Assembly (NCBI RefSeq): GCF_028274965.1
Contig: NZ_JAQCNO010000067.1
Span: forward strand, 1 to 64,000
DNA: 64,000 nt
Origin: Natronomonas sp.
Lineage (GTDB): Archaea > Halobacteriota > Halobacteria > Halobacteriales > Haloarculaceae
Direction: 5' to 3'
A program made the translations under genes and the position numbers. The notes under the pieces are model-generated. The model had not been told where the DNA came from. It saw only the letters and a program-made list of their open reading frames with translations, and made no database searches. Shown one piece after another: positions 30,675-47,909 of the stretch (positions are counted from its first letter, which is position 1; each line of letters starts with the position of its first letter).

Positions 30675-30959
30675 ATGACAGGAGAACGTCCGGCCGATCG
30701 CGGCTGGTTCGCCGGCGTCGACCCCGGATCGGAGGCGGCTGCCGCGGCGATACGGGAGGGGTCCGCGGAGACCACCGAGCAGTGGCCCCGGGCGGCCGTC
30801 GAATCGGGGTTCGCCGCCGACGAGGGCGACTACTACGACAGGCTCCGCGAGGCGACGATGGCGGCGACCCGGGCGGCCGTCCGCGAGGCCGAGACCGCCG
30901 ACGACAGACAGCTCATCCACGCCGTTCGGGCGATGGACGACATAAGCAGATATCTATAG
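30675..30959 (+). pseudogene. nop5: Native 5' fragment of nop5, cut off by the integrated element
   Basis: The 94-residue ORF is the N-terminal domain of the C/D-box RNP protein Nop5: WFAGVDPGSEAAAAAIREGSAE...WPRAAVESGFAADEGDYYDRLREAT...DDRQLIHAVRAMDD. At codon 89 the chromosomal frame stops and five element-derived codons (ISRYL) lead to a TAG. The coiled-coil and Nop C-terminal domains, which bind Nop5 and the guide RNA/L7Ae, are missing. Its own promoter is intact, so a stable fibrillarin-binding fragment could still be made. Composition is as GC-rich as the chromosome, unlike the replacement N-terminus at 46450. Confidence 0.9.
30927..30941 (+). repeat. Left attachment repeat (attL core)
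   Basis: CGGGCGATGGACGAC matches CGTGCTATGGACGAC at 46702-46716: 13 of 15 identical, both mismatches at third codon positions, with an exact 9-base ATGGACGAC core. Both copies encode R-A-M-D-D at codons 85-89 of the two Nop5 N-termini. Chromosomal sequence lies to the left and lower-GC element sequence to the right. Confidence 0.8.
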
Positions 30960-31081
30960 TAGTTGACTGTGTGAACCAGCCGACCAAATGAACGCGTACA
31001 TCGGCTGACTAATGATATAACATCCCTGTAAAGCCGCGAGAGTGACAGCATCGCGCCTTGGCGGACCGCCCCCGGCAAGCC
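30942..31081. other. Left terminal non-coding segment of the element
   Basis: These 140 bases lie between attL and the first element gene. They hold a 7 bp inverted repeat, CAGCCGA (30977-30983) and TCGGCTG (31001-31007), and two similar GTTGACT/GCTGACT heptamers. They are candidates for integrase or accessory-protein arm sites. No gene is seen. Confidence 0.4.
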
Positions 31082-31672
31082 CTACCCTCCGTCGTTAGAC
31101 TCAACTGACATTTCTTCGATTATTTCCTCCGCGGTTTCTCTCGGGACAGTCTCGTCTAGTTCGCCCGACTGAGCGTAGAGACGCAGGAATGCTCGAAGTT
31201 CGTGTTCATCGATTTCGTCGAAGTCACGGTTTCGGACTTGCGTCTCAACCTGCTCGAAGTCTGTTTTATGTACAGGGTACCGGTTGACGGAAAACTCAAC
31301 TTCGACACTCACACTGTCTCTTTCGGCACCGAGAATGTCGCGTTCAGCTTGCCGAACGCCTCGTCTCAACATCGCCGCGAAGCCGGGATTCTGGGTCTGG
31401 GTGTTCCGATACAGAAATGTGAATAAGTTAACCAAACCCTTGGAGAACTCCGGATTGTTGTCGCGGTGTGGATCGAAAATCAACTGTTGGTCTCTGTGGT
31501 CAAGCGCCGTTTGTAACAGGGTAAAATCCTGGATACTCTCTCGTATACGGGTACGAATCTCCTGTCGCACCCGCCGTTCGTTGGCGTCGTCGTACGATTT
31601 ATGCCCTAGCAGGTATTGTCGGTCCCTTTTCGATAGAATCCCGCGTTCTCGCTCCGACGGTTTTCCAGTCAT
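31082..31672 (-). CDS. Element protein of unknown function
   Basis: The 196-residue protein begins MTGKPSERERGILSKRDRQYLLGHKSYDDANERRVRQEIRTRIRESIQDFTLLQTAL. The 'GILSxxDRxYL-G-K-Y-ERQxRxxIRxRIxxSIxDF' arrangement recurs at the N-terminus of haloarchaeal plasmid and provirus proteins of unknown role. The remainder is soluble, mixed alpha/beta, acidic at the C-terminus. It is the only gene of the left zone on the minus strand and is divergent from the RHH-like gene at 31733; the AT-rich gap between them (TTAGATTACGT...TATTAATAAT) should hold both promoters. It may be a regulator. Confidence 0.7.
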   Translation of the reverse strand: MTGKPSERERGILSKRDRQYLLGHKSYDDANERRVRQEIRTRIRESIQDFTLLQTALDHRDQQLIFDPHRDNNPEFSKGLVNLFTFLYRNTQTQNPGFAAMLRRGVRQAERDILGAERDSVSVEVEFSVNRYPVHKTDFEQVETQVRNRDFDEIDEHELRAFLRLYAQSGELDETVPRETAEEIIEEMSVESNDGG

Positions 31673-31732
31673 GATATCGTACGCTAAAATCTATACGCAT
31701 GTATTAATAATCTTTCTAATCAACGTAATCTC

Positions 31733-31879
31733 ATGTCTAGGAATTCGAGTATCCCCGTATCGGACGAGACCCGCCGACGAATCAAAGCGTGTAAGCGCGC
31801 CGGTGAGACCTACGACGACCTTCTCACGCGGATGGCCGACCATTACGAGCCGCCAGCGCGGCCGGAGGGCATGCCATGA
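31733..31879 (+). CDS. Small ribbon-helix-helix-like protein
   Basis: This 48-codon ORF is too short for the ORF track. It reads MSRNSSIPVSDETRRRIKACKRAGETYDDLLTRMADHYEPPARPEGMP. The IPVSDETRRRIKxxKRxGETYDDLLxRM pattern matches haloarchaeal RHH/antitoxin-like proteins (DUF7557-like, from memory). The stop codon overlaps the next ATG (ATGA), supporting both genes. Its likely role is DNA binding and control of this promoter or of the divergent gene. Confidence 0.65.
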   Translation: MSRNSSIPVSDETRRRIKACKRAGETYDDLLTRMADHYEPPARPEGMP

Positions 31880-32127
31880 GCGGCCCTCACGACCGCTCCA
31901 ACATGGCTGACGGAACCCGCGAGGCACGAGTATCCCACGATGGCGACGGGGATCCTATTGGCGCGGCCGTGTTTCTCACACCGGAAGACCTCGCGGCCCT
32001 CGGCGTCGACACCGAAGCCGTCAATCGGGTACAATACACCGTAATCAACGGCCGATTACATCTTGGCTCCATGACCGGCGGTGAAGTGGATACCTCAGAC
32101 AAAGCCGAGGCTGGCGCCCAAGGGTAG
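31876..32127 (+). CDS. Small element protein of unknown function
   Basis: The 83-residue protein has an acidic tail and a compact core GDPIGAAVFLTPEDLAALGVDTEAVNRVQYTVINGRLHLGSM. The core looks like a small beta barrel of AbrB/SpoVT type, where a short strand is followed by L-x-xLG and a return strand, but this is only a resemblance. It overlaps the preceding RHH-like ORF by 4 bases; the two could be a regulator pair or antitoxin-like pair. Confidence 0.6.
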   Translation: MSGPHDRSNMADGTREARVSHDGDGDPIGAAVFLTPEDLAALGVDTEAVNRVQYTVINGRLHLGSMTGGEVDTSDKAEAGAQG

Positions 32128-32276
32128 CATGTGGGAGGGAAACCGAAATGGGCGGTGGGACGCCCGCGTCTACGGAGCTAAAACGACCACCCCGGAGGGG
32201 AAGCCGTCGTGAATAGCCTCTCCCGGCGTTTGTATGAAGATTCCGCCGCCGAGAAGCCAAGAGCAATTAGTACGTC

Positions 32277-32284
32277 TTTTTTTT
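32277..32284 (+). terminator. T-rich terminator candidate
   Basis: An uninterrupted run of eight T residues follows TACGTC about 150 bases after the 31733-32127 gene pair. Archaeal intrinsic termination uses such U-runs without needing a hairpin. Confidence 0.4.
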
Positions 32285-32400
32285 CGCGCATCGCTCAAAA
32301 GAGAGTGTTTCCCACCGGTATAACCTGCTCGACACACAGAAAACCGCCGGAATGGGCAAGGAAGGCCGTCGTGGTGGCCGACCGGACGGGACCGCACTAC

Positions 32401-32422
32401 ACTACTGTATTACTACTGTATT
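32401..32422 (+). repeat. Perfect 11 bp tandem repeat, probable operator
   Basis: ACTACTGTATT occurs twice back to back, followed by GTATCAGTACGTTACGTT, about 75 bases upstream of the operon beginning at 32495. The position and AT content suggest a promoter/operator, perhaps bound by one of the small DNA-binding proteins of the element. Confidence 0.4.
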
Positions 32423-32494
32423 GTATCAGTACGTTACGTTCGTTCACTTTGGCCTGACACGTTCGCATCGATCCGTTACGTCGTGGTGGTTCGG

Positions 32495-32782
32495 ATGAAC
32501 TCGGCCGAGCGCATCCCGCTCAACTGGAAACGTCCGCCCGAGTGGGACAGGTTCCTCTCGTCGGTCGAGAAAAAACATTCCGCGACGGCGCTGTATGCTG
32601 GTTTCGAGATAGAAATTGCCTGGCGGCGGTTCCACAAGGAACACTCGGTCGAGGAGTACACCGACCGACTCATGGGAGCCGTCGGTCGTCGTAACCAAGA
32701 CACGCGAAAAAAAAAGCACAGCCGACGCGGGAGGCCAGCGACGGCGGCCAGCGGATTTCTATTCGTATCAGAAAGGGAGTGA
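32495..32782 (+). CDS. Element protein of unknown function
   Basis: The 95-residue protein (MNSAERIPLNWKRPPEWDRFLSSVEKKHSATALYAGFEIEIAWRRFHKEHSVEEYTDRLMGAVGRR...) is basic at its C-terminus with RKKKHSRRGR, which suggests nucleic-acid contact. No family was recognised. ATG at 32495 is preferred to GTG at 32483. Its TGA overlaps the GTG start of the next gene, so it is the first gene of a coupled run of three. Confidence 0.6.
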   Translation: MNSAERIPLNWKRPPEWDRFLSSVEKKHSATALYAGFEIEIAWRRFHKEHSVEEYTDRLMGAVGRRNQDTRKKKHSRRGRPATAASGFLFVSERE

Positions 32783-33639
32783 AAAAAGACATGGCCGCCT
32801 CCGCGACCGAGAAGGGGAGCGCAAAACACGAGCTGCTCCGGGCCGTCGTGTGCTGGCACCTCTCCGGTGGTCTACTCGGCAGGGTCACGGACAAGCTGGA
32901 GGTAGCCGTCCCAGAGGCCGAGACCCAACTGGCCGGACTCGACCCGAGCGACGACCGGGGCCTGACAACTGTAGAAAAAAAGCGCCGGTGGCTGGCGGAC
33001 GAACTCACGCCGGGCCCATTCCCACGCGATGTGTTCGGTAGGAAGCTGGAGGCAATGTCCTGGCGAGGTGGCGACACGAAACACATGCGGAAGACGCACC
33101 TCCAGCCGGTGCTCAACCGTATCGGATACACGGAGCATCCGAACAACCGCGACCTGTTCATCCCTAAGGAGCAGGCCCGCGAGTACGCTGAGGAGCAGGG
33201 CATAGACCTCGACGCCCCAGCTTTCGAGTGGAAGCCATACTATGAACTCACCGATGACGAACGGACGCACGGCCTCCGTGTCGAGCTAGTGCGACGGGCG
33301 GCGCGATGTGGCGGAAAGCACGCCCTCTCGGCTGACAAGGCACGGAGCCAGGTGTTTGACGGGACCCCTGGGACGCGGAAGGTGAAAGGTCTCATGGACT
33401 GGGCGGCCGACGGCCATCCAGCCTTCGAGACGGACGCGAAGGGCGGGAGGAAACGGCTCCGGTGTGACCTCGGAGTGGGTGTGGACCCGGACATGCTGGC
33501 CGATGCCGGGCTCACCACCGACACCGACCCTCGCGAAGTCAGTGAGACGGATGAGAACGAACTCAAAACGGGCATAAAAGAGGATATGGACCGTATAATA
33601 GCCTCTACGCCCCCAGTGGGCGACAGGGGTAAAGAGTGA
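32779..33639 (+). CDS. Element protein, possible DNA-binding or replication-related
   Basis: The 286-residue acidic protein begins at a GTG that overlaps the preceding TGA by 4 bases. It has a helical region with RRWLADELTPGPFPRDVFGRKLEAMSWRGGDTKHMRKTHLQPVLNRIGYTEHPNNRDLFIPKEQAREYAEEQGIDLDAP, which reads like a winged-helix repeat unit, and a second half with ELVRRAARCGGKHALSADKARSQVF. I do not recognise the family; its size and place in the element make a replication initiator or regulator possible but unproven. Confidence 0.65.
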   Translation: MKKDMAASATEKGSAKHELLRAVVCWHLSGGLLGRVTDKLEVAVPEAETQLAGLDPSDDRGLTTVEKKRRWLADELTPGPFPRDVFGRKLEAMSWRGGDTKHMRKTHLQPVLNRIGYTEHPNNRDLFIPKEQAREYAEEQGIDLDAPAFEWKPYYELTDDERTHGLRVELVRRAARCGGKHALSADKARSQVFDGTPGTRKVKGLMDWAADGHPAFETDAKGGRKRLRCDLGVGVDPDMLADAGLTTDTDPREVSETDENELKTGIKEDMDRIIASTPPVGDRGKE

Positions 33640-33893
33640 CGGGGTACGATCGGAGCCTAGGAACGCCTGTAGTCCATCGGTGTGAGACGGTGGCCGCGAC
33701 GAGCGACTGTAAGGTTATCCACCTCGTGCTCCCTCCGCGCCGAGCGTGTACGACGCCACTATCTGACCTGCGGGACGCGGGCCGTGAGGTGTTCGCTGTC
33801 GGCGTACTTCCATCGGAGATCCCGAAGTGTCCTGTTGCCGACCACTACATCGGGTGCGAACAACTCCTCGTGCGAGACAGTGATCGGTCGTGA
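33636..33893 (+). CDS. Small element protein of unknown function
   Basis: The 85-residue protein starts at a GTG overlapping the previous stop by 4 bases. It contains KVIHLVLPPRRACTTPLSDLRDAGREVFAVGVLPSEIPKCPVADHYIGCEQLLV, with three to four Cys residues but no clear zinc motif. Coupling to the preceding gene supports translation. No function can be given. Confidence 0.55.
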   Translation: MTGYDRSLGTPVVHRCETVAATSDCKVIHLVLPPRRACTTPLSDLRDAGREVFAVGVLPSEIPKCPVADHYIGCEQLLVRDSDRS

Positions 33894-33963
33894 CCAGTCG
33901 TCACGCTTTCTTCTCCTCGAGGCTCAATGGTATAGTTCCCGTCACCACCGCCTTCCAGATCCC

Positions 33964-34194
33964 ATGACACGGCAGAACGGTAGCTTGGGGACCCGAGAGG
34001 TCAGCCGTATCGGCAGCATCGACCGCGTGCTGTCCCGGAAAGTAACCGAGGTTGTTGACGGAGGACCACCGACCGGAGTGTCGGAGGTTCGCGAGGTGTG
34101 CGACGGGGAGTTGTTTAAGAAGCGAGTGAGCGTCGCGGGATGGCCGACGAGGATGCGACAGTCGCACAGTCTACGCTCGCCGGCGAGCCTATGA
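33964..34194 (+). CDS. Small element protein with HTH-like stretch
   Basis: The 76-codon ORF reads MTRQNGSLGTREVSRIGSIDRVLSRKVTEVVDGGPPTGVSEVREVCDGELFKKRVSVAGWPTRM. The VLSRKVTEVV...GVSEVREVCDGELFKKRV part resembles a small helix-turn-helix. Its TGA overlaps an ATGATG that starts the next small ORF, which supports both. Evidence is otherwise only reading-frame and position. Confidence 0.42.
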   Translation: MTRQNGSLGTREVSRIGSIDRVLSRKVTEVVDGGPPTGVSEVREVCDGELFKKRVSVAGWPTRMRQSHSLRSPASL

Positions 34195-34367: not shown

Positions 34368-34423
34368 AATCCCACCGACGACGTGGCGGCGGATGGTGGT
34401 GACGCCGAGGAGCCGCACGCAAA

Positions 34424-35544: not shown

Positions 35545-36762
35545 ATGAGTCAAGATTCTTCTGTCACACAATTGATGGAGTCCTCACCTGAATATACCGA
35601 GGACTACGGGTCTGCTTATCAGGGAGACAGTCAAGAGCTGCTACGTGAACTTCCCGACAACAGTATCGATCTACTCGTCACCTCGCCTCCATTCGCGCTT
35701 CAACATCAGAAGCAGTACGGAAATGAGGACCAGTCCGAGTACAACGACTGGTTTATGCAGTTCGTGCCGGAGATCCGACGAGTACTCCAGCCACACGGGA
35801 GCTTAGTAATCGAGATAGGCGGGGCATTCAAGAAAGGCTATCCAGAGCGCTCAACATACCAGTTCGAGTTGCTTAATCGGCTGGTGGATCCTGATGAAGG
35901 GCAACTACATCTGGCACAAGACTTCTACTGGTATAACCCGGCAAAGCTACCGAATCCGATAGAGTGGGTGAATATCCGAAAGATCCGCGTGACTGACGCA
36001 GTCACGCATATCTGGTGGCTCACACCGGAGATCAACAAAGAGTCAGCAGCCGTTGACGGAGAACACCCCCACCCTGAAGCTGATAACCAGCGGGTGCTAC
36101 AGGAGTACTCTGATTCTCATAAGAAGCTTCTCGAAACCGGCGAGTACAACGACGGCGAGCGAAACTCCGGGTGGAACATAGATTCAGAAGCCTTCGCAAA
36201 TGAGAACGAAGGCTCCATTCCAGATAATTTGCTTGAGGGGCTGTCAGCTGATAATGTGCTTTCCCGGCTCGAAGAGGTCGATGCGAGCACGTTGCTTGAG
36301 AAGCTTGGTGCTGATCAACCGCTTGAGGAAATGTCAGCTGCGGAGTTACTTGGTCTTCTCGGGCTGGGTGGGCAGACTCCCAACAATGTGATCGAGGCGT
36401 CGAACACCGCGAGTAACACAAAGTATCTTAAGATGTGCCGGGAGTTCGATGATGTCGATCCCCACCCTGCCCGGTTCCCCCGGCAGATCCCAGAGTTCTT
36501 TATCGATTTCCTGACGCCGAACCCCCCATACGACGACTGGGAACGGGGCTATCTAGACCGACCGATTGTACTGGACATCTTTGCAGGGAGCAACCTCACC
36601 GGATTCGCAGCTGAAGCCAAAGGCCGGCACTGGCTCGCATTCGAAAAAGAGCAGAACTACGTCGAGTCCTCACAGTTCCGGTTCAAGTCTGAGGAGAAAA
36701 TCCGGGAGATGATAGAAGACGATCAGAGCAGCCTCGGCGATTTCCCCGTAGTCGGAGAATAG
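35545..36762 (+). CDS. Site-specific DNA methyltransferase (N4-cytosine/N6-adenine, beta-class layout)
   Basis: The 405-residue protein has motif IV as TSPPF at about residues 46-50 (DNSIDLLVTSPPFALQHQKQYG), and the AdoMet motif I as LDIFAGSNLTGFAAEAKGRHWLAFEKE near residue 345. Motif IV before motif I defines the beta class; SPPF favours N4-cytosine specificity. Between them is an insert with the target-recognition region and a Leu-rich acidic stretch (LLEGLSADNVLSRLEEVDASTLLEKLGADQPLEEMSAAELLGLL). It should methylate DNA and mark self for the island's restriction-like genes. It converges on the GyrA-CTD gene. Lower GC than the host suggests transfer. Confidence 0.88.
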   Translation: MSQDSSVTQLMESSPEYTEDYGSAYQGDSQELLRELPDNSIDLLVTSPPFALQHQKQYGNEDQSEYNDWFMQFVPEIRRVLQPHGSLVIEIGGAFKKGYPERSTYQFELLNRLVDPDEGQLHLAQDFYWYNPAKLPNPIEWVNIRKIRVTDAVTHIWWLTPEINKESAAVDGEHPHPEADNQRVLQEYSDSHKKLLETGEYNDGERNSGWNIDSEAFANENEGSIPDNLLEGLSADNVLSRLEEVDASTLLEKLGADQPLEEMSAAELLGLLGLGGQTPNNVIEASNTASNTKYLKMCREFDDVDPHPARFPRQIPEFFIDFLTPNPPYDDWERGYLDRPIVLDIFAGSNLTGFAAEAKGRHWLAFEKEQNYVESSQFRFKSEEKIREMIEDDQSSLGDFPVVGE

Positions 36763-36893
36763 CAACCCTCCGGGGTGCCCGTGTCGAATAGACGTGATGG
36801 CTCTGGCGAACCAAACGCCACCATGGCCATCGTTGTCGGCATATAGACAGATGCCCGCTCTTGCTGCCAGCGTCCCGGTAAATTGGTCGTAGC

Positions 36894-38423
36894 TCAACTC
36901 CTAGAGACAATAGTTACGCCGGCAACGGTATCCTCAGGATTCAGCTCGATTATATTGACTCCCTTCGTGTTCCGGCCGACCGTTGAAATCTCCGAGGCTG
37001 GAACTTTGATACCACGGCCTTGGCGTGTTACAATAATGACGTCCTCGGCACTGGTTATTGGGCGAGTCGTTACGACGGGTCCGTTGCGGTCGCCTGTGTT
37101 GATATCAACTAAGCCCCTCCCGTACCGGTTCTGTTTTCGGTATTCACCCACAGGGGTGCGTTTGCCGTAGCCATTCTGGGTTAGACTCAATATCTCGCCG
37201 TCAAAGTCGCTGGGCAGGACGGAAAGTGATACCGCCTGATCTGTCGAATCTAGCTCAATGCCAGCAACGCCCTTCGCTTGCCTTGTCATCGGCCGTGCCT
37301 CGTCTTCTCTAAATCTGATCGACTGCCCTGCGGCGGTCGTGATCAAAAGATCACTCTCCCCATCAGACCATCCAACATCTATCAGGGAGGACTCAGAGAG
37401 ATCAGCCGCAATAATCCCTGTGCTACGGATGTTTTCAAACTGTCCCGTGCCTGTGCGCTTCAGCTTGCCGTCCGCAGTCGCCGTCAGAAGAAATCCGTAA
37501 TAGCCGATGTCCGGTGCATCGAGTAACTCTACAATAGCTTCCTCATCCTGGATCGGGAGGGAATCTTGTACGGCTATGCCAGGATCGTCCAACGATCCGA
37601 CGGGGATTTCGTGGCCCTGAAACTCATAAATTTGTCCCGCTGTCGTCAGACAATATAGCTGATTACGCGGATTATAGGAATAGATAGCGTTGATCTGGTC
37701 ATCTTCGTGGAGATGGATTCTGTTGGTTCCTTTACCACCCCGATGTTGTGTCTGAAATGCTGAGCAAGGTGTTCGTCTGATCCGGCCGTCATCAGTCAGT
37801 ATCACCACCGCAGGTTCCCGAGGTATTACGTCGGTTCCCGCAAGCGCCTCATTCAGGGCGTCTAGCTCCTTCTTATCGAACTGCGCTGGCTCAGATTGAG
37901 AATTGCTCACGCCGACAATCGCCCGGCTAAGTTGTAATCGGAGTTTCGTTGGCGTGGGACGGAACGTAGGGAAGTCCGTTGGCAGCGCCTTCTTGATTGC
38001 AAGCAATTCCGACTTCGAGAACTCACCCGGTGAAGCTTCAGTCGGGGCGACAGTGTCGACATGCTCTGCAATCGCCGCTCTGAATTGTCGTCGTTGCTCC
38101 TCATTGGACTCACGGCTGCTCTGGCCGTGGCATTGCTTACACGGGTCGAGGAGGTCAGGCTTGCGAGAACTGCTTTTGAACTCTCTGTCGGCAATTGATA
38201 AGCCACAGACGGTCTCCGGAGCATTGTCACGCCTGAGGTGATAGGTAAACGTTCCAAAGTTGAGATAATCGATATCAGAGAGTTTGTTGGTTCCGACAGT
38301 TTCGGGATCGACGGTGTTGCCCTTCGTTGACTCATCGGACGGTGCCGCCTCATCATCCGGGTTATCCTCAGAGAGAATATCCGAAAAAAGCCCATCGTCA
38401 TCGGAGGCGTTGTCGTCTGTCAC
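36894..38423 (-). CDS. Stand-alone gyrase A C-terminal beta-pinwheel protein with zinc-like N-terminus
   Basis: The 509-residue protein lacks any gyrase breakage-reunion domain or catalytic Tyr region. Residues about 205-505 form a complete GyrA C-terminal DNA-wrapping domain: the GyrA-box appears as TQHRGGKG (about 224-230), then blades LLTATADGKLKRT, DLLITTAAGQSIRFREDEARPMTRQAKGVAGI, ILSLTQNGYGKRTPVGEYRKQNRYGRGLVDI and EISTVGRNTKGVNII, very close to bacterial GyrA. The N-terminus has an H...C...CKQC arrangement (YHLRRDNAPETVCG ... DPCKQCHG) suggesting a zinc site, and a helical linker. It starts with GTG. It probably binds or wraps DNA and may sense topology for the neighbouring helicase/SMC genes; that role is inference. 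Confidence 0.88.
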   Translation of the reverse strand: MTDDNASDDDGLFSDILSEDNPDDEAAPSDESTKGNTVDPETVGTNKLSDIDYLNFGTFTYHLRRDNAPETVCGLSIADREFKSSSRKPDLLDPCKQCHGQSSRESNEEQRRQFRAAIAEHVDTVAPTEASPGEFSKSELLAIKKALPTDFPTFRPTPTKLRLQLSRAIVGVSNSQSEPAQFDKKELDALNEALAGTDVIPREPAVVILTDDGRIRRTPCSAFQTQHRGGKGTNRIHLHEDDQINAIYSYNPRNQLYCLTTAGQIYEFQGHEIPVGSLDDPGIAVQDSLPIQDEEAIVELLDAPDIGYYGFLLTATADGKLKRTGTGQFENIRSTGIIAADLSESSLIDVGWSDGESDLLITTAAGQSIRFREDEARPMTRQAKGVAGIELDSTDQAVSLSVLPSDFDGEILSLTQNGYGKRTPVGEYRKQNRYGRGLVDINTGDRNGPVVTTRPITSAEDVIIVTRQGRGIKVPASEISTVGRNTKGVNIIELNPEDTVAGVTIVSRS

Positions 38424-38567
38424 AGGCGGATATCTTTCAGAGTGGACTTAATTGCTGTGTAATGGTGTTTTAGCTGCCTACAGCGAAACAACCCGCCGAC
38501 TGAACCCGATCGTCATAACACTTATTCTTGGGCCCTCTACAATTACAGGCGGGATTTGTGGGAACGG
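38424..38567. promoter_or_regulatory. Divergent promoter region in the defence island
   Basis: The 144-base AT-rich gap separates the minus-strand GyrA-CTD gene from the plus-strand run of five genes. GGATATC (38427-38433) is near the GTG start and TAACACTTATTCTTGG (38516-38531) lies 38-52 bases before the ATG at 38568, a TATA-like candidate. Confidence 0.35.
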
Positions 38568-39086
38568 ATGGTAGATCAGATCTCAAAACAGCAGATCCAC
38601 GAGCGCTTTCTCGACAGTCTTGAACCAGTTGTACAGGACCACGAGGACACCAGTTCTGTCCCCCTAGAGGCTGAACTCACGCGCCCACTACCTCCAAAGA
38701 TCAGAGTGTACGCCTACCAGGTGACAACCCCACCAGGTACCGGTACAGAGGGCGACCGGCTAGCACATCTGATCGTCCCCGGACAGTCTTCCGGAGAACG
38801 CGCTTCGTTCGATCACTCTGGCGGCCACTTCGCACTGCTAGTCGGATATGACCCTCAGATCCAGGTGTTCATCCTGTGGGATGCTGGGTTACACCAGAAC
38901 TTCAAATATGGAAAGAGAATTAGGGTCACCTCAGAAACAGTTTATGAGGCCGTCGGCGGAGAAATTGGAACCCAACAGCGTCACCTCAACACGGGGACAG
39001 AAACGGTTCTTACTGTTAAACACGACCGGCTGGCGGATGCTATCGAGCGCCGGTCAGAAATCACTACGGAGCGGCTTGTGGGCTAA
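38568..39086 (+). CDS. Methylase/helicase-associated small protein
   Basis: The 172-residue protein has a conserved-looking block: KIRVYAYQVTTPPGTGTEGDRLAHLIVPGQSSGERASFDHSGGHFALLVGYDPQIQVFILWDAGLHQNFKYGKRIRVTSETVYEA. I recall similar proteins beside DNA methylases and helicases in bacterial modification/restriction loci, but cannot name the family with certainty. The G-F-ALLVGY ... FILWDA strands could be a modified-base or DNA-end recognition fold. It is 3 bases upstream of the helicase and surely in its operon. ATG at 38568 is preferred over a TTG at 38556. Confidence 0.7.
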   Translation: MVDQISKQQIHERFLDSLEPVVQDHEDTSSVPLEAELTRPLPPKIRVYAYQVTTPPGTGTEGDRLAHLIVPGQSSGERASFDHSGGHFALLVGYDPQIQVFILWDAGLHQNFKYGKRIRVTSETVYEAVGGEIGTQQRHLNTGTETVLTVKHDRLADAIERRSEITTERLVG

Positions 39087-39089
39087 CAT

Positions 39090-41222
39090 ATGAAGGATAA
39101 ATTACAGGACCTCTCATTGGCACCCTCCTATCACAAAGGCGAAGACAATATCGCGACAGAGTTTTATCGACCTTGTCTGGAGCGGGCAACACAGTACGAC
39201 CGGGCAGTCGGGTTCTTCCGGAGTTCCATCTATCTTCTTGCCTGGGATAGCCTGAAGACCTTCGTCAACAACGGCGGCAAGATGCGAATCATCTGCTCAC
39301 CGGTGCTTGACTTGGAGGACCGAGATGCGATCGAGAGTGGTTACCAGGCCCGAACCGACGAACAGCTCGCCGAGGAACTGGCAGAGGTTATTGACTCGAT
39401 GCTCTCGGAGCCTGGGTTAGAGAAGCCGACGAAAGTCCTTGCCGCACTCGTCGCAGAGGGGATCATCGAGTTTAAGATCGCTTCCCTCGATGATGATGCC
39501 CCTGCGCGACATAAACGGCTGTTCCATGACAAGCTGGGTATCTTCACCCAGGAACAGCCGCAAGCGCCACAAGATCCTGCTGTCGTATTCAAAGGTTCGA
39601 TGAATGAAACTTGGGCTGGCCTGGCGATGGACGGAAACCTCGAATCGGTTGATGTCTACGTCTCTTGGGGCCCAGACCGAGAACAAGAACGGGTCCGTGA
39701 TGAGCAGACCTACTTCGACACGCTGTGGGAAGACACCTACGACGCTGTGAGGGTTCGAGACTTCCCGGCGGTTGCGAAAGAGAAGTTGGTCTCGGCGGCT
39801 GATGCCGTCGAGTGGGAGTCCGTTGTCGATGAAATTGTCGAGGAGATCGAGCGCTCCCGTGTTGAGTCTCCTGACACAGGGCCCAACCCGCGAACACCGT
39901 TACCACATCAACAGCGAGCGCTCGAAGCCTGGCGTGAACGGGGTCATTCAGGTGTCTTCGAACACGCAACGGGTAGTGGTAAGACCTTCACCGCACTTTG
40001 TGCGATTCGTGAGGCCCTTCAGGAAGGAAAATCACCGGTCGTTTTCGTTCCGAACACCGATCTGCTGGAGCAGTGGAAAGCTGAGCTAAAGTCGACAAAT
40101 CAGGATCTCGATCCAAGTCTATTGATCTGCGGCGGTGGAAATAACGACTGGAAAAAAGATGGGCTATTACGCTCTTGGACCCGCCCGAACGGATCGCCGC
40201 GAATTGTGCTATCGACGATGCAGTCGGGTATCGCTGATGACTTCCAGTCACTATTTAATGACGGTGAGCACACATTTTTGATTGCTGATGAAGTTCACCG
40301 GATTGGCAGCCCGGAACATCAAAAGCTTCTTGATTTTGATGCTGGCTGGCGACTCGGATTAAGTGCGACCCCGCGTAGGTACGGCGATGAGGAAGGAACA
40401 GCAGTGATCATGGAGTATTTCGATGGCATCGTCCAGCCACCATTTACACTCGCCGACGCAATCGAGGCTGGCCGGCTCACGCCATATTTTTATCATGTAC
40501 ACACTGTTTCGCTGACTCCGGGCGAACAGGACGACTGGGAGGAGCTCACCCAAGAGATTCGCAAGAGGTATGCCCGTTCGCAGGCGGGTGACGACACCGA
40601 TCTGGATGACCTACCAGAGCACATCAAGCAGCTACAGATTGATCGCGCTCGAATACTGAAAGGGGCTAGCCAGAAGACCCAGAAAGCACGAGAGATCCTC
40701 GCACGACAGTATTCGGGAGGCGATCGATGGCTGGTGTACTGCGCTGGAATAGACCAGCTGAAAGAGGTCCGTGACGAGCTTGCGGATCAGCCCTTCCGAG
40801 TGCTGGAGTATCATAGCAAGATGGACGGTGACCGGGCACAGACATTAGAATTCTTCGAGAACCAAGGAGGAGTTATTTTGTCGATCAAATGCCTTGACGA
40901 AGGTGTTGATATTCCAAATGCAACACATGCGCTAATCCTTGCCTCCTCGAAGAACCCTCGTGAGTTCATTCAGCGTCGGGGTCGAGTTCTCCGAAATTCA
41001 GAAAATAAACATCATGCGAATATCCACGACGTGGTAGTTGAACCGTACAGCACCGAGAGCGACATCCCCGTTAATAGTATTCTCGAGGGCGAACTCGCTC
41101 GAGCGATTCAGTTCGGGAAGGATGCGGAGAATCCGAAATCGGTTGCTGATCTAAAACAAATTGCGCACAAAGCCGGAATCGACTACGACGCTCTTGCCGA
41201 AACCGGAGTTGAAGATGACTGA
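39090..41222 (+). CDS. PLD-nuclease-like / DEVH superfamily 2 helicase
   Basis: The 710-residue protein has an N-terminal phospholipase D-like domain (residues about 15-215; RAVGFFRSSIYLLAWDSLKTFVNNGGKMRIICSP, HDKLGIF, VFKGSMNETWAGL) and an SF2 helicase core: Walker A ATGSGKTFTALC (about 291), IADEVHRIGS (about 398), LGLSATPRR, and motif VI QRRGRVLRN (about 627). The fused nuclease-like and translocase domains match the enzyme type found in anti-phage restriction systems, including those tied to DNA phosphorothioation. Only one HxK half-motif is seen, so nuclease activity would need dimerisation. It overlaps the next small gene by 8 bases. Confidence 0.9.
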   Translation: MKDKLQDLSLAPSYHKGEDNIATEFYRPCLERATQYDRAVGFFRSSIYLLAWDSLKTFVNNGGKMRIICSPVLDLEDRDAIESGYQARTDEQLAEELAEVIDSMLSEPGLEKPTKVLAALVAEGIIEFKIASLDDDAPARHKRLFHDKLGIFTQEQPQAPQDPAVVFKGSMNETWAGLAMDGNLESVDVYVSWGPDREQERVRDEQTYFDTLWEDTYDAVRVRDFPAVAKEKLVSAADAVEWESVVDEIVEEIERSRVESPDTGPNPRTPLPHQQRALEAWRERGHSGVFEHATGSGKTFTALCAIREALQEGKSPVVFVPNTDLLEQWKAELKSTNQDLDPSLLICGGGNNDWKKDGLLRSWTRPNGSPRIVLSTMQSGIADDFQSLFNDGEHTFLIADEVHRIGSPEHQKLLDFDAGWRLGLSATPRRYGDEEGTAVIMEYFDGIVQPPFTLADAIEAGRLTPYFYHVHTVSLTPGEQDDWEELTQEIRKRYARSQAGDDTDLDDLPEHIKQLQIDRARILKGASQKTQKAREILARQYSGGDRWLVYCAGIDQLKEVRDELADQPFRVLEYHSKMDGDRAQTLEFFENQGGVILSIKCLDEGVDIPNATHALILASSKNPREFIQRRGRVLRNSENKHHANIHDVVVEPYSTESDIPVNSILEGELARAIQFGKDAENPKSVADLKQIAHKAGIDYDALAETGVEDD

Positions 41223-41415
41223 AGACACAGACGAACTCATGGCCGCGCTGGAGAGTATCCGACAAGAAGAGTTTCCGGAAATACCAGCCGATTTGGTTGA
41301 GGAAATCATCCGGATTGAAGAAGAAACGCTCGAAGAGCGAGAAAAGACACAAAGCCGGATTTCGGAGGTTGTCGAGTCCCAGTTGGAGGACGGATCAGAT
41401 GTTAAAAATAAATAG
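41215..41415 (+). CDS. Small acidic coiled-coil protein of the modification island
   Basis: The 66-residue protein (MTEDTDELMAALESIRQEEFPEIPADLVEEIIRIEEETLEEREKTQSRISEVVESQLEDGSDVKNK) is nearly all helix. It overlaps the helicase by 8 bases and the SMC-like ATPase by 17 bases, so it is translationally bound to both. Such small proteins recur between helicase and DndD-like genes in bacterial loci (I recall a 'DNA modification system-associated small protein'). It probably bridges or tethers the two large enzymes. Confidence 0.8.
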   Translation: MTEDTDELMAALESIRQEEFPEIPADLVEEIIRIEEETLEEREKTQSRISEVVESQLEDGSDVKNK

Positions 41416-43387
41416 ACTCGAACTTGAGGACTTTGGCCCGTTCAAAGGGAACCAGACTTTGGAGTTCCCAAAAGAGGATGGGGTGACAATCGTCTTCGGC
41501 GAAAACATGCGGGGAAAAACCACGCTATTGAATGCAATTCGATATGCGTTATTCGGTCGTATTCTTGATCGAGGCACCCGTGAGATCTCTCCAGAACAGT
41601 TTATCAACTGGGAAACTAAAGAGGAGGGAAAATTCTCGTTCAAGATTGCCCTGTATTTCGAAGAAAACGGGACAGACTACGAACTTGTCAGAGAACATAC
41701 CCCGAAAGATGGGATTGAGGTGCCACAGGCGGACGATGATTACACCGAAAACGTATATCTCGTCAAAGATGGGACGGTGACCGGACCGGAAGCACGGGAA
41801 AAAGAGCTGGCGGAGATCTTACCCCAGCAGGTCTCGCGATTTTTCCTGTTTGATGGAGAACTCCTCCAGCAGTATGAGGAACTCCTCATCGATGAAAGTG
41901 AGATGGGCCAGCAGATCCGGGAAGCAATCGAAAGGATCCTGGGAGTCCCGGTCCTTAAAAACGGTCGCGCTGACATACAAGCGCTCCTGAATGACGCCCA
42001 GACTAAAGAGCAAGAAGCAGCCCAGCGAGACGACGAAACCGAACAGCTCGGGACGCAGTTGGAGACGACGCATGGCAAGCGGAACCAACTTGAATCAGAC
42101 CTATCAGAACTCAAAGATGAGTTAGATGGGTTGAAAGAAGAAAAGCTGGCAATACAAAACAAGCTTCAGCAACTCGAGGGTGCTCGGAGTCTCGTCAACC
42201 GGCGGGAAAACTTGGAGGAAGAGCTGGAAGAGATTGACCAAGGCCTCGAGGATAAGCAGGCTCAACTTCAAGAGGCGATGGCAGATTCCTGGCGGAGTGT
42301 ACTACAAAGTACCGTCCAAGATCGACTTGAAACTCTCAAAGAACAGCGGCAAGAACTTGAAAAAAAACAGACCCGGATATCCGTCGCAGAGCAGCTTGCG
42401 GAACGGATTTCTGATGGCTTAGAGCGCGGGGACTGCCCGATCTGTGACCAGCCCTTAGAAGACGGGGCAGAACAGCACCTCCAGAGTGAACTTGAGCAGT
42501 TCCAAGGACTAACCGATCAGGACTTCGATCCGGAAGAGAGATACGACCAGATCCTTCGTTCGATCGAAGCGTTGGAGCGCGTCATCGAGTCAGATAACAC
42601 CGACCGTGTCAAAGCAATTATTTCTGAAATTGACGAATTGAAAGCGCGGCGTGCAACGGTAAGTGACGATCTCAGTGAGGTCAAAGAGGGTCTCGAGTCC
42701 TCAAAAGAAGAGCGGGTCCGGGATCTCAACAAACAGTACGAGGATACCGTCGGCGAGATCCGTATCAAGAAGGACGCCATCGAGGAGACTGAAAACGAAC
42801 TGGAGAAAGCTAAGAACACTGTTCAAGATCTCCAAGATAGATTGGATCAAATTTCCGGTAGTGGGCTTGAGCGGGAGCGCGCCCGTCGAGAGCTATACGA
42901 GAAGCTGGAGGAGCTCTTCGATCAGGGTGTTGCTGAGTACCGCGATAGGCTGCGTCAGCGTGTCGAAAGCGATGCGTCAGAGATTTTTCTTCGGCTGACG
43001 ACCGAGCCAGAATATGAGCGACTGAAAATTAACGACAATTACGGCTTGACTATCATACATGAGGACGGGGACGAGATTGAGGTGCGCTCAGCCGGTGCGG
43101 AACACGTCGTTGCACTAGCTCTGATGGGTGCCCTCCAGAACAACGCGCCGCTACAAGGACCAATCATTATGGACTCGCCGTTTGGACGGTTGGACCGAGG
43201 GCATATGGAGAACGTTGTTGAGGCACTGCCGACGTTCACCGATCAGGTGATGCTGCTGGTCTACCGTGATGAGATTGATCCTCAGAGGGCCCGTGATATT
43301 CTCAAGGGGCAGCTACGGAAAGAGTACACGCTTGAACGCGTCAGTGCGCGGCACACAGATCTACAGAAAGGAGGTGTTGAAGAATGA
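41399..43387 (+). CDS. DndD-like SMC/Rad50-type ATPase
   Basis: The 662-residue protein begins MLKINRLELEDFGPFKGNQTLEFP with Walker A GENMRGKTTLLNAIRYALFG (about residue 33), and ENVYLVKDGTVTGPEAREKELAEILPQQVSRFFLFDGELLQQ, a block typical of DndD. A long coiled coil carries a zinc-hook-like CPICDQPL (about 345). The C-terminal lobe has signature SAGAEHVVALALMGAL and Walker B/D-loop IIMDSPFGRLDRGH (about 590). It should bind and act on DNA ends or loops with ATP. No dndA, dndB, dndC or ssp genes lie in the window, so this is not a standard phosphorothioation locus. Confidence 0.9.
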   Translation: MLKINRLELEDFGPFKGNQTLEFPKEDGVTIVFGENMRGKTTLLNAIRYALFGRILDRGTREISPEQFINWETKEEGKFSFKIALYFEENGTDYELVREHTPKDGIEVPQADDDYTENVYLVKDGTVTGPEAREKELAEILPQQVSRFFLFDGELLQQYEELLIDESEMGQQIREAIERILGVPVLKNGRADIQALLNDAQTKEQEAAQRDDETEQLGTQLETTHGKRNQLESDLSELKDELDGLKEEKLAIQNKLQQLEGARSLVNRRENLEEELEEIDQGLEDKQAQLQEAMADSWRSVLQSTVQDRLETLKEQRQELEKKQTRISVAEQLAERISDGLERGDCPICDQPLEDGAEQHLQSELEQFQGLTDQDFDPEERYDQILRSIEALERVIESDNTDRVKAIISEIDELKARRATVSDDLSEVKEGLESSKEERVRDLNKQYEDTVGEIRIKKDAIEETENELEKAKNTVQDLQDRLDQISGSGLERERARRELYEKLEELFDQGVAEYRDRLRQRVESDASEIFLRLTTEPEYERLKINDNYGLTIIHEDGDEIEVRSAGAEHVVALALMGALQNNAPLQGPIIMDSPFGRLDRGHMENVVEALPTFTDQVMLLVYRDEIDPQRARDILKGQLRKEYTLERVSARHTDLQKGGVEE

Positions 43388-44384: not shown

Positions 44385-44835
44385 GTCTAATCACGTCGCC
44401 ACGTACCCGTCCGACAAACAACTTAGCCGGTGGAAGGTCAAATGTGAGGAAATGGGATTTCGTTCTCGGTCGGAGTTCGTAGAGGCGATGGTAGAGGCGG
44501 GCCTCAAGAAGTTCGACGCGTCGGAGATAGACCCCGACGAAACGAACCGAGAGCTCCGTGAACAACGAAACAACCTAAAGGCGGAACTGGACCGCGCCCG
44601 GGACCGGATAGCGGACCTCGAAGACGCCGTCTACCACGGCGAACGCCAGGCTATCAAAGAGTTCGTGGATACAAACCCGGGAGCCAGCTATGACGAAATC
44701 ATCCAGCACGTCATCGACACAGTCCCGGAGCGTGTGACCACTCATCTGGACGACATGGAGGGGGAGTACCTTCGTGTCGAAGATGGGCGGTACTACCTAC
44801 GGGACGAAATCACCACGGTGGACGAAAAATCTTGA
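44377..44835 (+). CDS. RHH / coiled-coil / winged-helix-like accessory protein
   Basis: The 152-residue protein has an N-terminal ribbon-helix-helix (VATYPSDKQLSRWKVKCEEMGFRSRSEFVEAMVEAGLKKF), a coiled coil (ETNRELREQRNNLKAELDRARDRIADLEDAVYHGERQ) and a C-terminal wHTH-like block (FVDTNPGASYDEIIQHVIDTVPERVTTHLDDMEGEYLRVEDGRYYL). It precedes a recombinase relative and the integrase by only a few bases. Small DNA-binding partners encoded beside the SNJ2-type haloarchaeal integrase assist integration and excision; this is likely an equivalent. Confidence 0.78.
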   Translation: MSESNHVATYPSDKQLSRWKVKCEEMGFRSRSEFVEAMVEAGLKKFDASEIDPDETNRELREQRNNLKAELDRARDRIADLEDAVYHGERQAIKEFVDTNPGASYDEIIQHVIDTVPERVTTHLDDMEGEYLRVEDGRYYLRDEITTVDEKS

Positions 44836-44839
44836 AATC

Positions 44840-45346
44840 ATGCCAGCACCGAAGAACCGACCACAACTGTCGAACGATGTCCGCGACCGCATGGGCGTCT
44901 ACAAGCAGATCAACGCGGTCCCCGACAAGTACCGACTTCAAAACCACGAAGCTGCCTACTCTGGGAGGGACGTGTGGGCGGACTACTTCGAGGAGAAGAC
45001 GGAAAAGTTCGATACGAAGTCCACCCGCGACCGCTACGAAAAGGCGGGTCGCTACTTCAAAACCTACATGGACGACGTGGGCCGGCACCATGCCCTGGCC
45101 GATCCCCAGCAGATCAAAGACTTCCTGGTCGCTCTCCGAGACGGGAACGTGGGACGACACAGCCACTCGCGGAAGCTTCAGACTGTCTACTTCGAATACT
45201 TCCAACCGCTGGAAGAATTCTACAACTGGTTACAGTGGCACGCTGACCACCCGCACGTCTACCACCCTGTGCTGATGGCAGTGGTGGCCGGCGGCTTCTC
45301 CCGCGACGTGTGGGACCGGAAACTAGAGCAGAACGACAAGAGATGA
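44840..45346 (+). CDS. Core-binding-domain protein without recombinase catalytic domain
   Basis: The 168-residue protein contains a SAM-like core-binding domain of tyrosine recombinases: FDTKSTRDRYEKAGRYFKTYMDDVGRHHALADPQQIKDFLVALRDGNVGRHSHSRKLQTVYFEYFQPLEEFYNWLQWHADHPHVYHPV. It ends where a catalytic domain would begin, and no R...HxxR...Y is present. It is 3 bases from the integrase ATG. It probably acts as an accessory subunit in the integrase complex, comparable in position to the accessory ORFs of the SNJ2 integrase operon. Confidence 0.75.
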   Translation: MPAPKNRPQLSNDVRDRMGVYKQINAVPDKYRLQNHEAAYSGRDVWADYFEEKTEKFDTKSTRDRYEKAGRYFKTYMDDVGRHHALADPQQIKDFLVALRDGNVGRHSHSRKLQTVYFEYFQPLEEFYNWLQWHADHPHVYHPVLMAVVAGGFSRDVWDRKLEQNDKR

Positions 45347-45349
45347 ACT

Positions 45350-46441
45350 ATGTCCGAAAACGATAGACAAACACTGGCAGAAGCCTTCAACCGCGAAATA
45401 GACCCCCTGGCTAACCACGCTACGACGTTCGACGGCGTCGACGTCGACGTATTTGGCCTGTTCATGGACGATGTCCTGAAGCCACAGGACCCATCCCAAG
45501 GTACGTTGGATTCCTATGACCGGACAATTCGAGAGTGGCGGGAGTTCATGTCTGACCAGGGTCGCCATCCGGCATGTCCTCACGAAGACCACGTCAAGCG
45601 GTTTATTCGTCGAGAACTGGATGAAAAAGGGAACTCCCGGCGAACAACAAAAAAGAAACTGTGGGAGCTCAACAAGATATACAAATACTGGCAGAACGGC
45701 GCGGAGTTCCCTCATCCGATGGACTACAATCCGTTCATGATAGCGAAGAAGAAGATGTCTCTGTCTACCAAGCGAGTGAAGGAGCCCCCGCGAATTCCGG
45801 TAGAAGATCTTCAGGATATCGTGGCGGACGTGAAGCACATCCGAGACCGGGCGTTCATCGTCACCCAGCTGAAGCTGGGGCTTCGTGCTAGCGAAATGGC
45901 GAACATCAAGATTAGTGAACTGAACATCACGAACAGCGAAGTCGAAAAGCACTATCCGGACATGGGAAGTTCACCACACGTTGCCCGATTCGACAACGCA
46001 GTTTACATTCCCCACGACCGACAGGGGAACAAGTCGCAGCGCCCACGGGTCCTACCAGTGGACGAAGAACTCCGCCGGCTGTGGATGAACTACCTGCTGA
46101 TCCGCCCCGACAACAACGAATCCTGGCTGTTCCTCTCGCGGACGAACCACACCCAGGTGGACGACGAAGCTATCAACCTGACGTGGAAACGCCACTTCCA
46201 CCCAGAATATAAAGAAACCCAGCAGCACAGGGCTGTGACGTCCCACTACGGACGGCACCGCTTCACCACGTTCTGGCGCGTGGAGCAAGACGTGAACCGC
46301 GAACTCATAAAATATATGCGCGGGGACACGTCCGCTGGTGGAACCACCGACCCGGCTGGTGGAATCGACCACTACATTCACAGCTATTACGAGGACATCG
46401 AGCCGCTCTATCGGAAGCGCATTTACAAGCTGGGTGTCTAA
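45350..46441 (+). CDS. int: Tyrosine site-specific integrase
   Basis: The 363-residue protein has an N-terminal core-binding domain (SQGTLDSYDRTIREWREFMSDQG...HVKRFIRRELDEKGNSRRTTKKKLWELNKIYKYW) and a catalytic domain with Arg I in LGLRASEMANIKISEL (about residue 178), HYGRHRF for the HxxR box (about 298-303), and the Tyr nucleophile in IDHYIHSYYED (about 339-347). It should recombine attP with the RAMDD codons of nop5. It is the last gene of the integration operon and ends 8 bases before the element-supplied nop5 start codon. Confidence 0.92.
   Translation: MSENDRQTLAEAFNREIDPLANHATTFDGVDVDVFGLFMDDVLKPQDPSQGTLDSYDRTIREWREFMSDQGRHPACPHEDHVKRFIRRELDEKGNSRRTTKKKLWELNKIYKYWQNGAEFPHPMDYNPFMIAKKKMSLSTKRVKEPPRIPVEDLQDIVADVKHIRDRAFIVTQLKLGLRASEMANIKISELNITNSEVEKHYPDMGSSPHVARFDNAVYIPHDRQGNKSQRPRVLPVDEELRRLWMNYLLIRPDNNESWLFLSRTNHTQVDDEAINLTWKRHFHPEYKETQQHRAVTSHYGRHRFTTFWRVEQDVNRELIKYMRGDTSAGGTTDPAGGIDHYIHSYYEDIEPLYRKRIYKLGV
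46421..46430 (+). promoter_or_regulatory. Possible embedded promoter for reconstituted nop5
   Basis: ATTTACAAGC, inside the last integrase codons (R-I-Y-K-L), lies 20-29 bases before the nop5 ATG at 46450. It is the only TATA-like element at leaderless spacing. Otherwise nop5-flpA must be read through from the integrase operon. Confidence 0.35.
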
Positions 46442-46449
46442 GTCAGATT

Positions 46450-47286
46450 ATGACTGACAGTTCTGCGGATACGAGCTGGTTCCGAGGGATAAACCCTGGC
46501 GACTTGGATGCCGCCCGTGATGCTATCGAAAGCGGAAGCACGGAAGCGCCTAGTGACTGGCCGATCCAGGCAGTGGAGTCCGACTTTGCGGACGACGAAG
46601 ACGACTATTATGATCTCCTTCACGACGCCACGGTGTACGCGGCCCGTGAGGAAACTCGAGAGCGCGAAAGGGCAGATGACCAACAGTTAAAACATAGTAT
46701 TCGTGCTATGGACGACTGCGAGCGGGTCGCGAACGAACTCGCCGAGCGGGTCGCGGCGTGGGCCGGCAGCCGGCGTCCGGACGCCGGGGCGGGGATCGAG
46801 TACGCGAGGGAGCTGGCGGCCGACGACGACGCGGACCCGGCCCTGGCCGCGCTCGCCCGCCGGGTCCGGGATCTCGACGAGGAGGCGGCGGCGCTTCGGA
46901 CCCGCGTCGAGCGGGCGGCCCCCGAGGTCGCCCCGAACCTCGCGTCGCTCGCGGGGCCGGTCCTCGCCGCGCGGCTGATCGCGCTCGCCGGCGGGCTGGA
47001 CGAGCTCGCCCGGAAGCCGGCCGGGACCGTCCAGGTCCTCGGGGCCGAGGAGGCGCTTTTCGCCCACCTCCGGGGGCGCGCGCCGTCGCCGAAACACGGC
47101 GTCATATTCACCCACGAGGCGATCCAATCGAGCGCCCCCGAGGACCGCGGGTCGGCGGCGCGGGCGCTGTCGGGGAAGCTGGCGATCGCCGCGCGGGTCG
47201 ATCACTACTCCGGGGAGCGAAAGCCCGAGTTGGACGCCGAACTCGCCGACCGGATCGAACGGATCCAAGGGCGTGAGACCGAATGA
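46450..47286 (+). CDS. nop5: Nop5 (C/D-box RNP core), chimeric: element N-terminus, native C-terminus
   Basis: The 278-residue protein is complete Nop5. Residues 1-89 come from the element and parallel the stranded native head (same 89-residue length, about 40 of the last 69 residues identical, ending SIRAMDD). From residue 90 (CERVANELAERV) it is native GC-rich sequence with the coiled coil and the Nop domain (APNLASLAGPVLAARLIALAGGLDELARKPAGTVQVLGAEEALFAHLRGRAPSPKHGVIFTH). It bridges fibrillarin and L7Ae on guide RNAs for rRNA/tRNA 2'-O-methylation. Its stop overlaps flpA by 4 bases. Confidence 0.93.
   Translation: MTDSSADTSWFRGINPGDLDAARDAIESGSTEAPSDWPIQAVESDFADDEDDYYDLLHDATVYAAREETRERERADDQQLKHSIRAMDDCERVANELAERVAAWAGSRRPDAGAGIEYARELAADDDADPALAALARRVRDLDEEAAALRTRVERAAPEVAPNLASLAGPVLAARLIALAGGLDELARKPAGTVQVLGAEEALFAHLRGRAPSPKHGVIFTHEAIQSSAPEDRGSAARALSGKLAIAARVDHYSGERKPELDAELADRIERIQGRETE
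46702..46716 (+). repeat. Right attachment repeat (attR core)
   Basis: CGTGCTATGGACGAC is the partner of the repeat at 30927-30941. Sequence to the left is element-like (TTAAAACATAGTATT) and to the right is chromosome-like (TGCGAGCGGGTCGCG). The sharp composition change at this point supports the crossover here. Confidence 0.8.
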
Positions 47287-47909
47287 GCCTGCCCGACGGC
47301 GTCGAGAGGCGCTCATTCGGCGGCGGCGAGTGGCTGGCGACGGAGGGAGATCCGGTCTACGGCGAGCCGACCGCGGGCGGGTGGCGGCGCTGGGACCCGC
47401 GCCGCTCGAAGCTCGGCGCGATGCTCGAAGACGGGATGGACACCGGGCTCGAGGGCGGGGAGACGGTGCTGTATCTCGGCGCAGCCGCGGGGACGACAGC
47501 GAGTCACGTCGCCGATTTCGCCGGCCCGACGTACGCCGTCGAGTTCGCCGCCCGACCGGCCCGGGAGCTGCTCGAGGCCGCCGAGCCGCGCTCGAGGCTG
47601 TTTCCGCTGTTGAAAGACGCCCGAAAGCCCGAGACGTACGCCCACGTCATCGAGCCGGTCGACGTCGTGATACAGGATGTCGCGACGCGGGGACAGGCGG
47701 CGGTCGCGCTTGCGAACCGGCGGTTCCTCCGCGAGGACGGCCGCCTGCTGCTCGCGGTGAAAGCAAGAAGCGAGGACGTCACGCGTGATCCGGACGCGGT
47801 GTTCGAGTCGGTTCTCGGGGACCTGCGGGAGGGGTACGCCGTCCGCGAGACGCGGTCGCTCACACCGTTTCACCGCGATCACCTCGCCGTCGTCGCGGAG
47901 CCGCGCTGA
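47283..47909 (+). CDS. flpA: Fibrillarin-like rRNA/tRNA 2'-O-methyltransferase
   Basis: The 208-residue protein has the fibrillarin pattern: YGEPTAGGWRRWDPRRSKLGAMLEDGM, AdoMet site VLYLGAAAGTTASHVADF, PLLKDARKPETYAHVIEPVDVVIQDVA and LLLAVKARSEDVTRDP with the catalytic Lys. It is the catalytic subunit of the C/D-box RNP and binds the Nop5 N-terminal domain. It overlaps nop5 by 4 bases, so its expression now also depends on the promoter provided by the integrated element. Confidence 0.95.
   Translation: MSLPDGVERRSFGGGEWLATEGDPVYGEPTAGGWRRWDPRRSKLGAMLEDGMDTGLEGGETVLYLGAAAGTTASHVADFAGPTYAVEFAARPARELLEAAEPRSRLFPLLKDARKPETYAHVIEPVDVVIQDVATRGQAAVALANRRFLREDGRLLLAVKARSEDVTRDPDAVFESVLGDLREGYAVRETRSLTPFHRDHLAVVAEPR

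Follow-up and report, generated by a model that had tools for sequence, protein, structure and literature searches.

The analysis of a 64,000-nucleotide stretch of Natronomonas sp. DNA (the window) confirmed that a low-GC element of ~15.8 kb interrupts the nop5 gene at its RAMDD codons. We consider it very probable (about 0.93) that this element recombined at the RAMDD site by means of a tyrosine integrase, that the target gene was rebuilt as a result, and that the element belongs to a haloarchaeal family whose members swap their cargo.

Between the two copies of the core sequence ATGGACGAC the GC content was mostly 0.50–0.63, versus ~0.70 in the chromosome. At the left end lies a stranded native nop5 head (30675–30959, forward strand; 94 aa), comprising 89 native codons through RAMDD and then ISRYL and a stop, a tail made up of five element codons and a stop codon. 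The attL core ATGGACGAC is at 30933–30941 (forward), and the right arm of attP, which stands at the left end of the element (30942–30959, forward), reads ATAAGCAGATATCTATAG and is degenerate relative to the consensus ATGGnnAGAATACTAT drawn from other elements. At the right end an element-borne head, also of 89 codons (46450–46716, forward), closes with the attR core ATGGACGAC (46708–46716, forward), which marks the right end of the element, and runs in frame into the native nop5 body (46717–47286, forward). This body, which is GC-rich and contains the coiled coil and Nop domain, overlaps at its 3′ end the following gene, and the full rebuilt nop5 (46450–47286, forward) encodes 278 aa with a match to Pfam Nop (PF01798, E = 8e-38). 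The 15-mers at the two junctions, CGGGCGATGGACGAC and CGTGCTATGGACGAC, agree at 13 of 15 positions. Direct att repeats are present at both ends of the element, and the uninterrupted site is present in relatives. A preliminary description of this DNA had reported two 89-codon heads, one stranded and one fused to the native body, att-like repeats around an exact core, and head identity of ~58% over 69 residues; the ORFs and core were as described, and the heads proved 55% identical by BLASTP across 88 residues (E = 9e-16), a value near the earlier one. Its range of 30675–47909 is too long at the right, as the element ends at 46716 and 47909 is the end of the next gene.

To learn how widely this layout occurs, nop5 was searched for in 394 Halobacteria genomes (identified below by G numbers) alongside a search for the integrase, and the junctions were then compared. 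The nop5 search found a lone head upstream of a full gene in further genomes, and the integrase search placed close relatives of the window integrase at several of those same loci; a further truncated head and integrases of this subfamily, which the preliminary description had proposed looking for elsewhere, were thus found in other genomes. Besides the window, no fewer than nine haloarchaeal genomes have this arrangement, and overall it recurs in roughly a dozen species of haloarchaea. The genomes are Halobellus captivus (G338), Halorubrum Atlit-26R (G335), Natrinema gari (G093), N. pallidum (G034, contigs split), G149, G194, G320 and QS_4_70_19 (G391), together with two that were reached via the att pattern, namely QS_8_65_32 (contigs split) and the complete genome of Haloglomus halophilum ZY41, in which the heads are 75 kb apart. 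The junctions fall on the same codons in G034, G093, G149, G194, G320, G335, G338 and G391, and since the whole arrangement recurs at the same codons in other genomes, the layout in the window is not a chance one. Our counts of independent insertions are estimates, in which the three Natrinema cases are separate head acquisitions and the non-Natrinema insertions were taken as separate on the basis of their hosts and head clades.

Recurrence also bears on whether the window layout could have been produced by an assembly artefact or a chimeric contig. The window genome is in 73 contigs with 94% completeness, which leaves some room for such an error, but the same layout is found in Haloglomus halophilum, whose chromosome is complete, and inside multi-megabase contigs of G149, G194 and G320, and we regard an artefact as having a very small probability.

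Some members of the integrated family were partial or degraded. Only the right half was found in Halorubrum californiense (G227), close to a contig end, and in G329 the rebuilt head adjoins an integrase remnant. The cores in some of the stranded copies (G149, G338, G320) have decayed, as expected of abandoned fragments, and the integrases of some related elements (G093, G194, G149) are broken. Several apparent second heads were rejected, because nop5 had merely matched in adjacent pieces (G025, G045, G175, G220, G348, G354, G356, G368), because the second match was a different gene region (G325) or because the pieces sit at contig ends (G379). In G354 (C1:207474-208297) the several matching pieces of nop5 included a stop, perhaps due to a frameshift or sequencing error. 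A separate observation was made in G291 (C1:924723-931813), where two nop5 heads ~6 kb apart (924723 and 931478) are 72% identical and have a similar core; the locus has transporter-like cargo and no integrase match, and is possibly a degenerate or different element.

The integrase of the window (45350–46441, forward; PF00589, E = 7e-10, and PF02899) lies beside the right repeat, as had been noted in the preliminary description, and ends 8 bp before the start of the rebuilt nop5. Integrases at the nop5 site group in a single clade (support 99). Almost every family member that was checked, at nop5 or elsewhere, has a gene of ~150–180 codons immediately upstream of its integrase, which in the window is int2N (44840–45346, forward), encoding a lone core-binding-like domain with no catalytic domain. 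The AlphaFold model of int2N has a mean pLDDT of 90 and its fold weakly matches the core-binding domains of Cre, lambda integrase and the N-domain of a Haloarcula integrase. As these matches have E values of 0.16 or worse, we infer only that int2N may be a recombinase partner or regulator. No tRNA target was found within ~1.5 kb of 23 related integrases. By tblastn the integrase had no match in the phage collection, and its plasmid matches were only haloarchaeal.

The sequences around the junctions suggest how the integrase might recognize its site. Nearly all element-borne heads end in CATAGTATTCGnGCnATGGACGAC, the AT-rich codons of which spell His-Ser-Ile-Arg. These heads share CATAGTATTCGnGCn-ATGGACGA, an inverted copy of which is found at most left ends, and in most elements the opposite end reads ATGGACGACATGGnnAGAATACTAT or near it. 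Based on the shared head-end sequence and its inverted copy, the integrase site is presumed to be written in nop5 codons, with the presumed left arm of the window element, CATAGTATTCG (46693–46703, forward), lying within the His-Ser-Ile-Arg codons. A search for CATAGTATTCGnGCnATGGACGA with up to two mismatches matched 20 of the 394 genomes, versus none of the 394 for a reversed control, and the matches that were examined lie in nop5. In the mechanism we propose, the integrase recombined the ~15.8 kb element at the nop5 site coding for RAMDD. The sequence shows that the crossover fell at ATGGACGAC, with the native 89-codon head left stranded and the element head joined in frame to the native body. 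The circular attP would consist of the core between the inverted arms CATAGTATTCG and CGAATACTAT, which probably bind the integrase, and the bases of the left arm would double as an integrase binding site and as codons. The earlier suggestion that the RAMDD codons serve as attB is supported by ~10 left/right junction pairs. Searches by att pattern and by integrase found no circular form in viral contigs, phages or plasmids; the plasmid matches were distant or to an ordinary nop5.

The element also appears to bring a promoter with it. In an alignment of upstream regions, a box like GGGAACGCATATACG stands ~30 bp ahead of the start of native and intact nop5 genes, and most element-borne heads are preceded by a similar box. 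By alignment with the native upstream regions, the promoter-like box for the rebuilt gene in the window is CGGAAGCGCATTTACAAGC (46412–46430, forward), which falls within the integrase ORF at its 3′ end, and we infer that the element supplies the promoter for the rebuilt nop5. The next gene (47283–47909, forward), which we take to be that of fibrillarin from its position after nop5 and from sequence knowledge, overlaps the nop5 stop codon and so would be served by the new promoter as well. With nop5 and the fibrillarin gene both kept expressed from the element promoter, the conserved target would tolerate the insertion.

To determine the origin of the two heads, we constructed a tree of 82 heads, whose alignment has only 80 columns and whose deep branches are uncertain. 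Element-type heads formed two strongly supported clades, one (100/98) with those of G243, G072, G149, G061, G335, G227 and G338, whose hosts represent several genera, and one (100/99) with those of G034, G093, G194 and G329, which spans two families. By comparison, the stranded head of the window grouped with those of two congeners, G100 and G222 (98/93), and that of G338 with five intact Halorubrum-group genomes, G009, G109, G015, G172 and G207 (99/96). The nop5 bodies follow their hosts in the body tree, with the body from the window placed with its host genus. Element-free relatives, whose comparison had been proposed in the preliminary description, have an uninterrupted nop5 with a head of the stranded type (for example G009, G109, G015, G172 and G207; G100 and G222). 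Constraining the rebuilt head of G338 to the host clade was rejected (p = 0.009), as was constraining the rebuilt Natrinema heads to their congeners (p = 0.004). For the stranded Natrinema heads, the topology test of grouping with intact congeners gave p = 0.07, and for this reason we do not claim older swaps in that genus. Among the three Natrinema species, dS was 0.04–0.08 for the rebuilt heads versus 0.23–0.56 for the bodies, indicating that the heads arrived after the species split.

These trees are relevant to a different explanation, in which a tandem duplication of nop5, or homologous recombination, was followed by divergence and mobile genes settled between the two heads later. Exchange between heads does occur, as in QS_4_70_19 (G391) the first codons of both heads and ~35 bp upstream are nearly identical. 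However, the head and body trees contradict a duplication, as most element-borne heads are nearer to the heads of other genera than to the host's own, and intact relatives have a single head of the native type. In addition, every genome has its breakpoint at the same codon, accompanied by conserved arms and one integrase clade. We therefore consider an origin by duplication highly improbable, and favor integration of an element that carried a foreign head.

The N-terminal domain of Nop5 binds fibrillarin, by homology, and from alignment to a solved Nop5 and general knowledge of the domain layout we judged the swapped part to be this whole domain. If the element decays, the foreign head could stay in place, so that the N-terminal domain of Nop5 would be permanently replaced. 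The preliminary description had taken element-type heads without an insertion to count against integration. Such heads do exist, but both look like scars of lost elements: G243 has only a low-GC element-type head next to host-like DNA, and G290, a congener without a nop5 element, has the apparent last 13 integrase codons and a stop directly before nop5. Intact GC-rich heads with near-matches to the arm (2 mismatches) were observed in G136 (C1:97655) and G235 (C1:861583), and are perhaps old, ameliorated scars.

These features raise the question of whether the swapped head could be cargo of use in its own right, for instance by affecting the Nop5–fibrillarin interaction or by allowing escape from a virus factor, and not a mere repair patch. 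The replaced segment, a whole N-terminal domain, is far longer than recombination needs, the element-borne heads are under purifying selection (dN/dS ~0.1–0.3 in the larger clade), and in G243 and G290 the heads seem to have outlasted the element. Persistence and purifying selection would be equally expected, however, if the head merely keeps nop5 working, and we think a benefit from the head itself unlikely, and prefer its role as a replacement that keeps the gene intact.

A sister lineage of the integrase was found in a gene that, from its sequence features, we take to be mutY, in G159 (C5:66986-93701) and G332 (C2:56845-78319). There, the element rebuilds the 3′ end of the gene over its last ~150 codons, and the native tail is stranded 20–25 kb away; that of G159 is closest to the tail of an intact congener (88%). 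A search for duplicated gene parts up to ~37 kb upstream at 20 further integrase loci found only mutY in G159 and G332, with the paralogue-like matches in G216 not counted. In G361 (C3:186582-186761) a stretch that contains a stop weakly matches the mutY tail; it lies ~1 kb from the intact mutY and is perhaps the scar of an element in this gene.

The genes between the junctions of the nop5 elements are, from their sequence matches, varying antiviral systems on one integration module. In the window, the left-end gene (31082–31672, reverse) has a similar protein beside a related integrase in G262. Defense cargo includes a DNA N6/N4 methyltransferase (35545–36762, forward; PF01555, E = 3e-28; PADLOC MTase_II, E = 7e-99), followed by a MTaX1 methylase-associated protein (38556–39086, forward; PF20296, E = 5e-15), a PbeA-like helicase (39090–41222, forward; PADLOC PbeA, E = 2e-208) and a PbeC/DndD-like ATPase (41297–43387, forward; PADLOC PbeC, E = 2e-219), the true start of which is probably further downstream. 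Relative to the Pbe system (PbeABCD and DndCDEA), PADLOC thus matched PbeA, PbeC and a methyltransferase, and called no Dnd modification genes among the ORFs scanned, which included only part of the small ones; the region from 35545 to 43387 may be a methylation-based relative of Pbe. Within this neighborhood is also a stand-alone protein of four GyrA C-terminal beta-propeller repeats (36894–38423, reverse; PF03989, E = 6e-50).

Other elements at nop5 have different cargo. That of G338 (C33:88494-97500) has a type I-B set of cas6, cas8b, cas7, cas5, cas3 and cas1 by PADLOC, and the G391 element (C20) has a PADLOC match to cas3. In G391, G093 and G194 there are ORFs of similar sizes, with similar start sequences in G391 and G093, and the G093 element (C30:126189-143096) contains a long CRISPR-like repeat-spacer array. 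The G093 and G391 loci were read, like that of G338, as type I-B cas operons. The G335 element (C4:61013-69641) has DISARM-like DrmA, DrmB and DrmC with a cytosine methyltransferase. The common module would consist of the partner gene, integrase, nop5 head and att, while the antiviral cargo changes between haloarchaea. More broadly, we think it reasonably probable that defense islands with a two-gene recombinase carry host half-genes in their att sites (for nop5 the 5′ domain, for mutY the 3′ half), spread whole CRISPR-Cas and other defense loci, and once decayed leave permanent domain swaps behind in a core ribonucleoprotein gene.

Restoration of the 5′ end and promoter of a target gene had been considered unusual in the preliminary description. 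This is the case for archaea but not in general, as one report (PMC8409611) describes bacterial elements, SXT in prfC and the dusA islands, that restore the 5′ end of the conserved gene they enter and equip it with a new promoter. The window element likewise supplies an in-frame 5′ coding part of its target; since that target is nop5, we do not assign the element to the dusA or SXT families proper. The dusA islands (IMEVchUSA3 and relatives, in Proteobacteria) resemble it in that an integrase inserts them into a conserved RNA-modification gene, within its 5′ part, and in that they bring a new promoter along with a diverged N-terminus (61% identity across 35 residues), for which expression was shown. 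They differ in being bacterial, in their target gene, and in replacing 35 residues versus a whole 89-codon domain, and the available text describes no lone core-binding partner gene for them (PMC8409611). SXT/R391 elements in prfC are bacterial and conjugative, with a different target and cargo. The portion of nop5 that is swapped exceeds that in both the SXT and the dusA cases.

Archaeal surveys have found mainly tRNA targets (PMC8371274). Thaumarchaeal elements resemble the nop5 elements in having short att sites in conserved protein genes, but all 14 of 14 protein-gene insertions were 3′-distal, with eight bases replaced in the example given (PMC6563490). The tRNA-targeting and suicidal SSV-type integrases are also tyrosine recombinases, and they too restore conserved genes or make use of them; the nop5 element differs as it targets a protein gene and its integrase stays whole beside att, and the complete ORF at 45350–46441 beside attR led us to reject the suicidal type. 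A casposon was likewise rejected, with no cas1 match among the main genes of the element and direct att repeats beside a tyrosine integrase. In the open-licence literature we found neither an archaeal precedent for such 5′-end rebuilding nor a report of nop5 as an integration target in haloarchaea, and the large automated TIGER/Islander catalogues (PMC12424338) may contain such islands without comment. What appears to be new is the archaeal setting, together with the extent of the swap (a whole domain), the defense cargo, the recombinase partner and the scars.

These findings indicate how, in archaea, a large piece of DNA can settle in a highly conserved protein gene and not destroy it, namely by bringing a replacement domain and an apparent promoter. 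The attB in nop5 represents a site-specific integration system of possible use in genetically tractable haloarchaea. The nop5 elements would also provide a concrete vehicle, as well as an address for insertion, by which complete CRISPR-Cas, DISARM-like and Pbe-like loci spread horizontally from one haloarchaeon to another. Finally, some mosaic Nop5 proteins may be explained as scars of such elements, which matters for phylogenies based on core genes of this kind.
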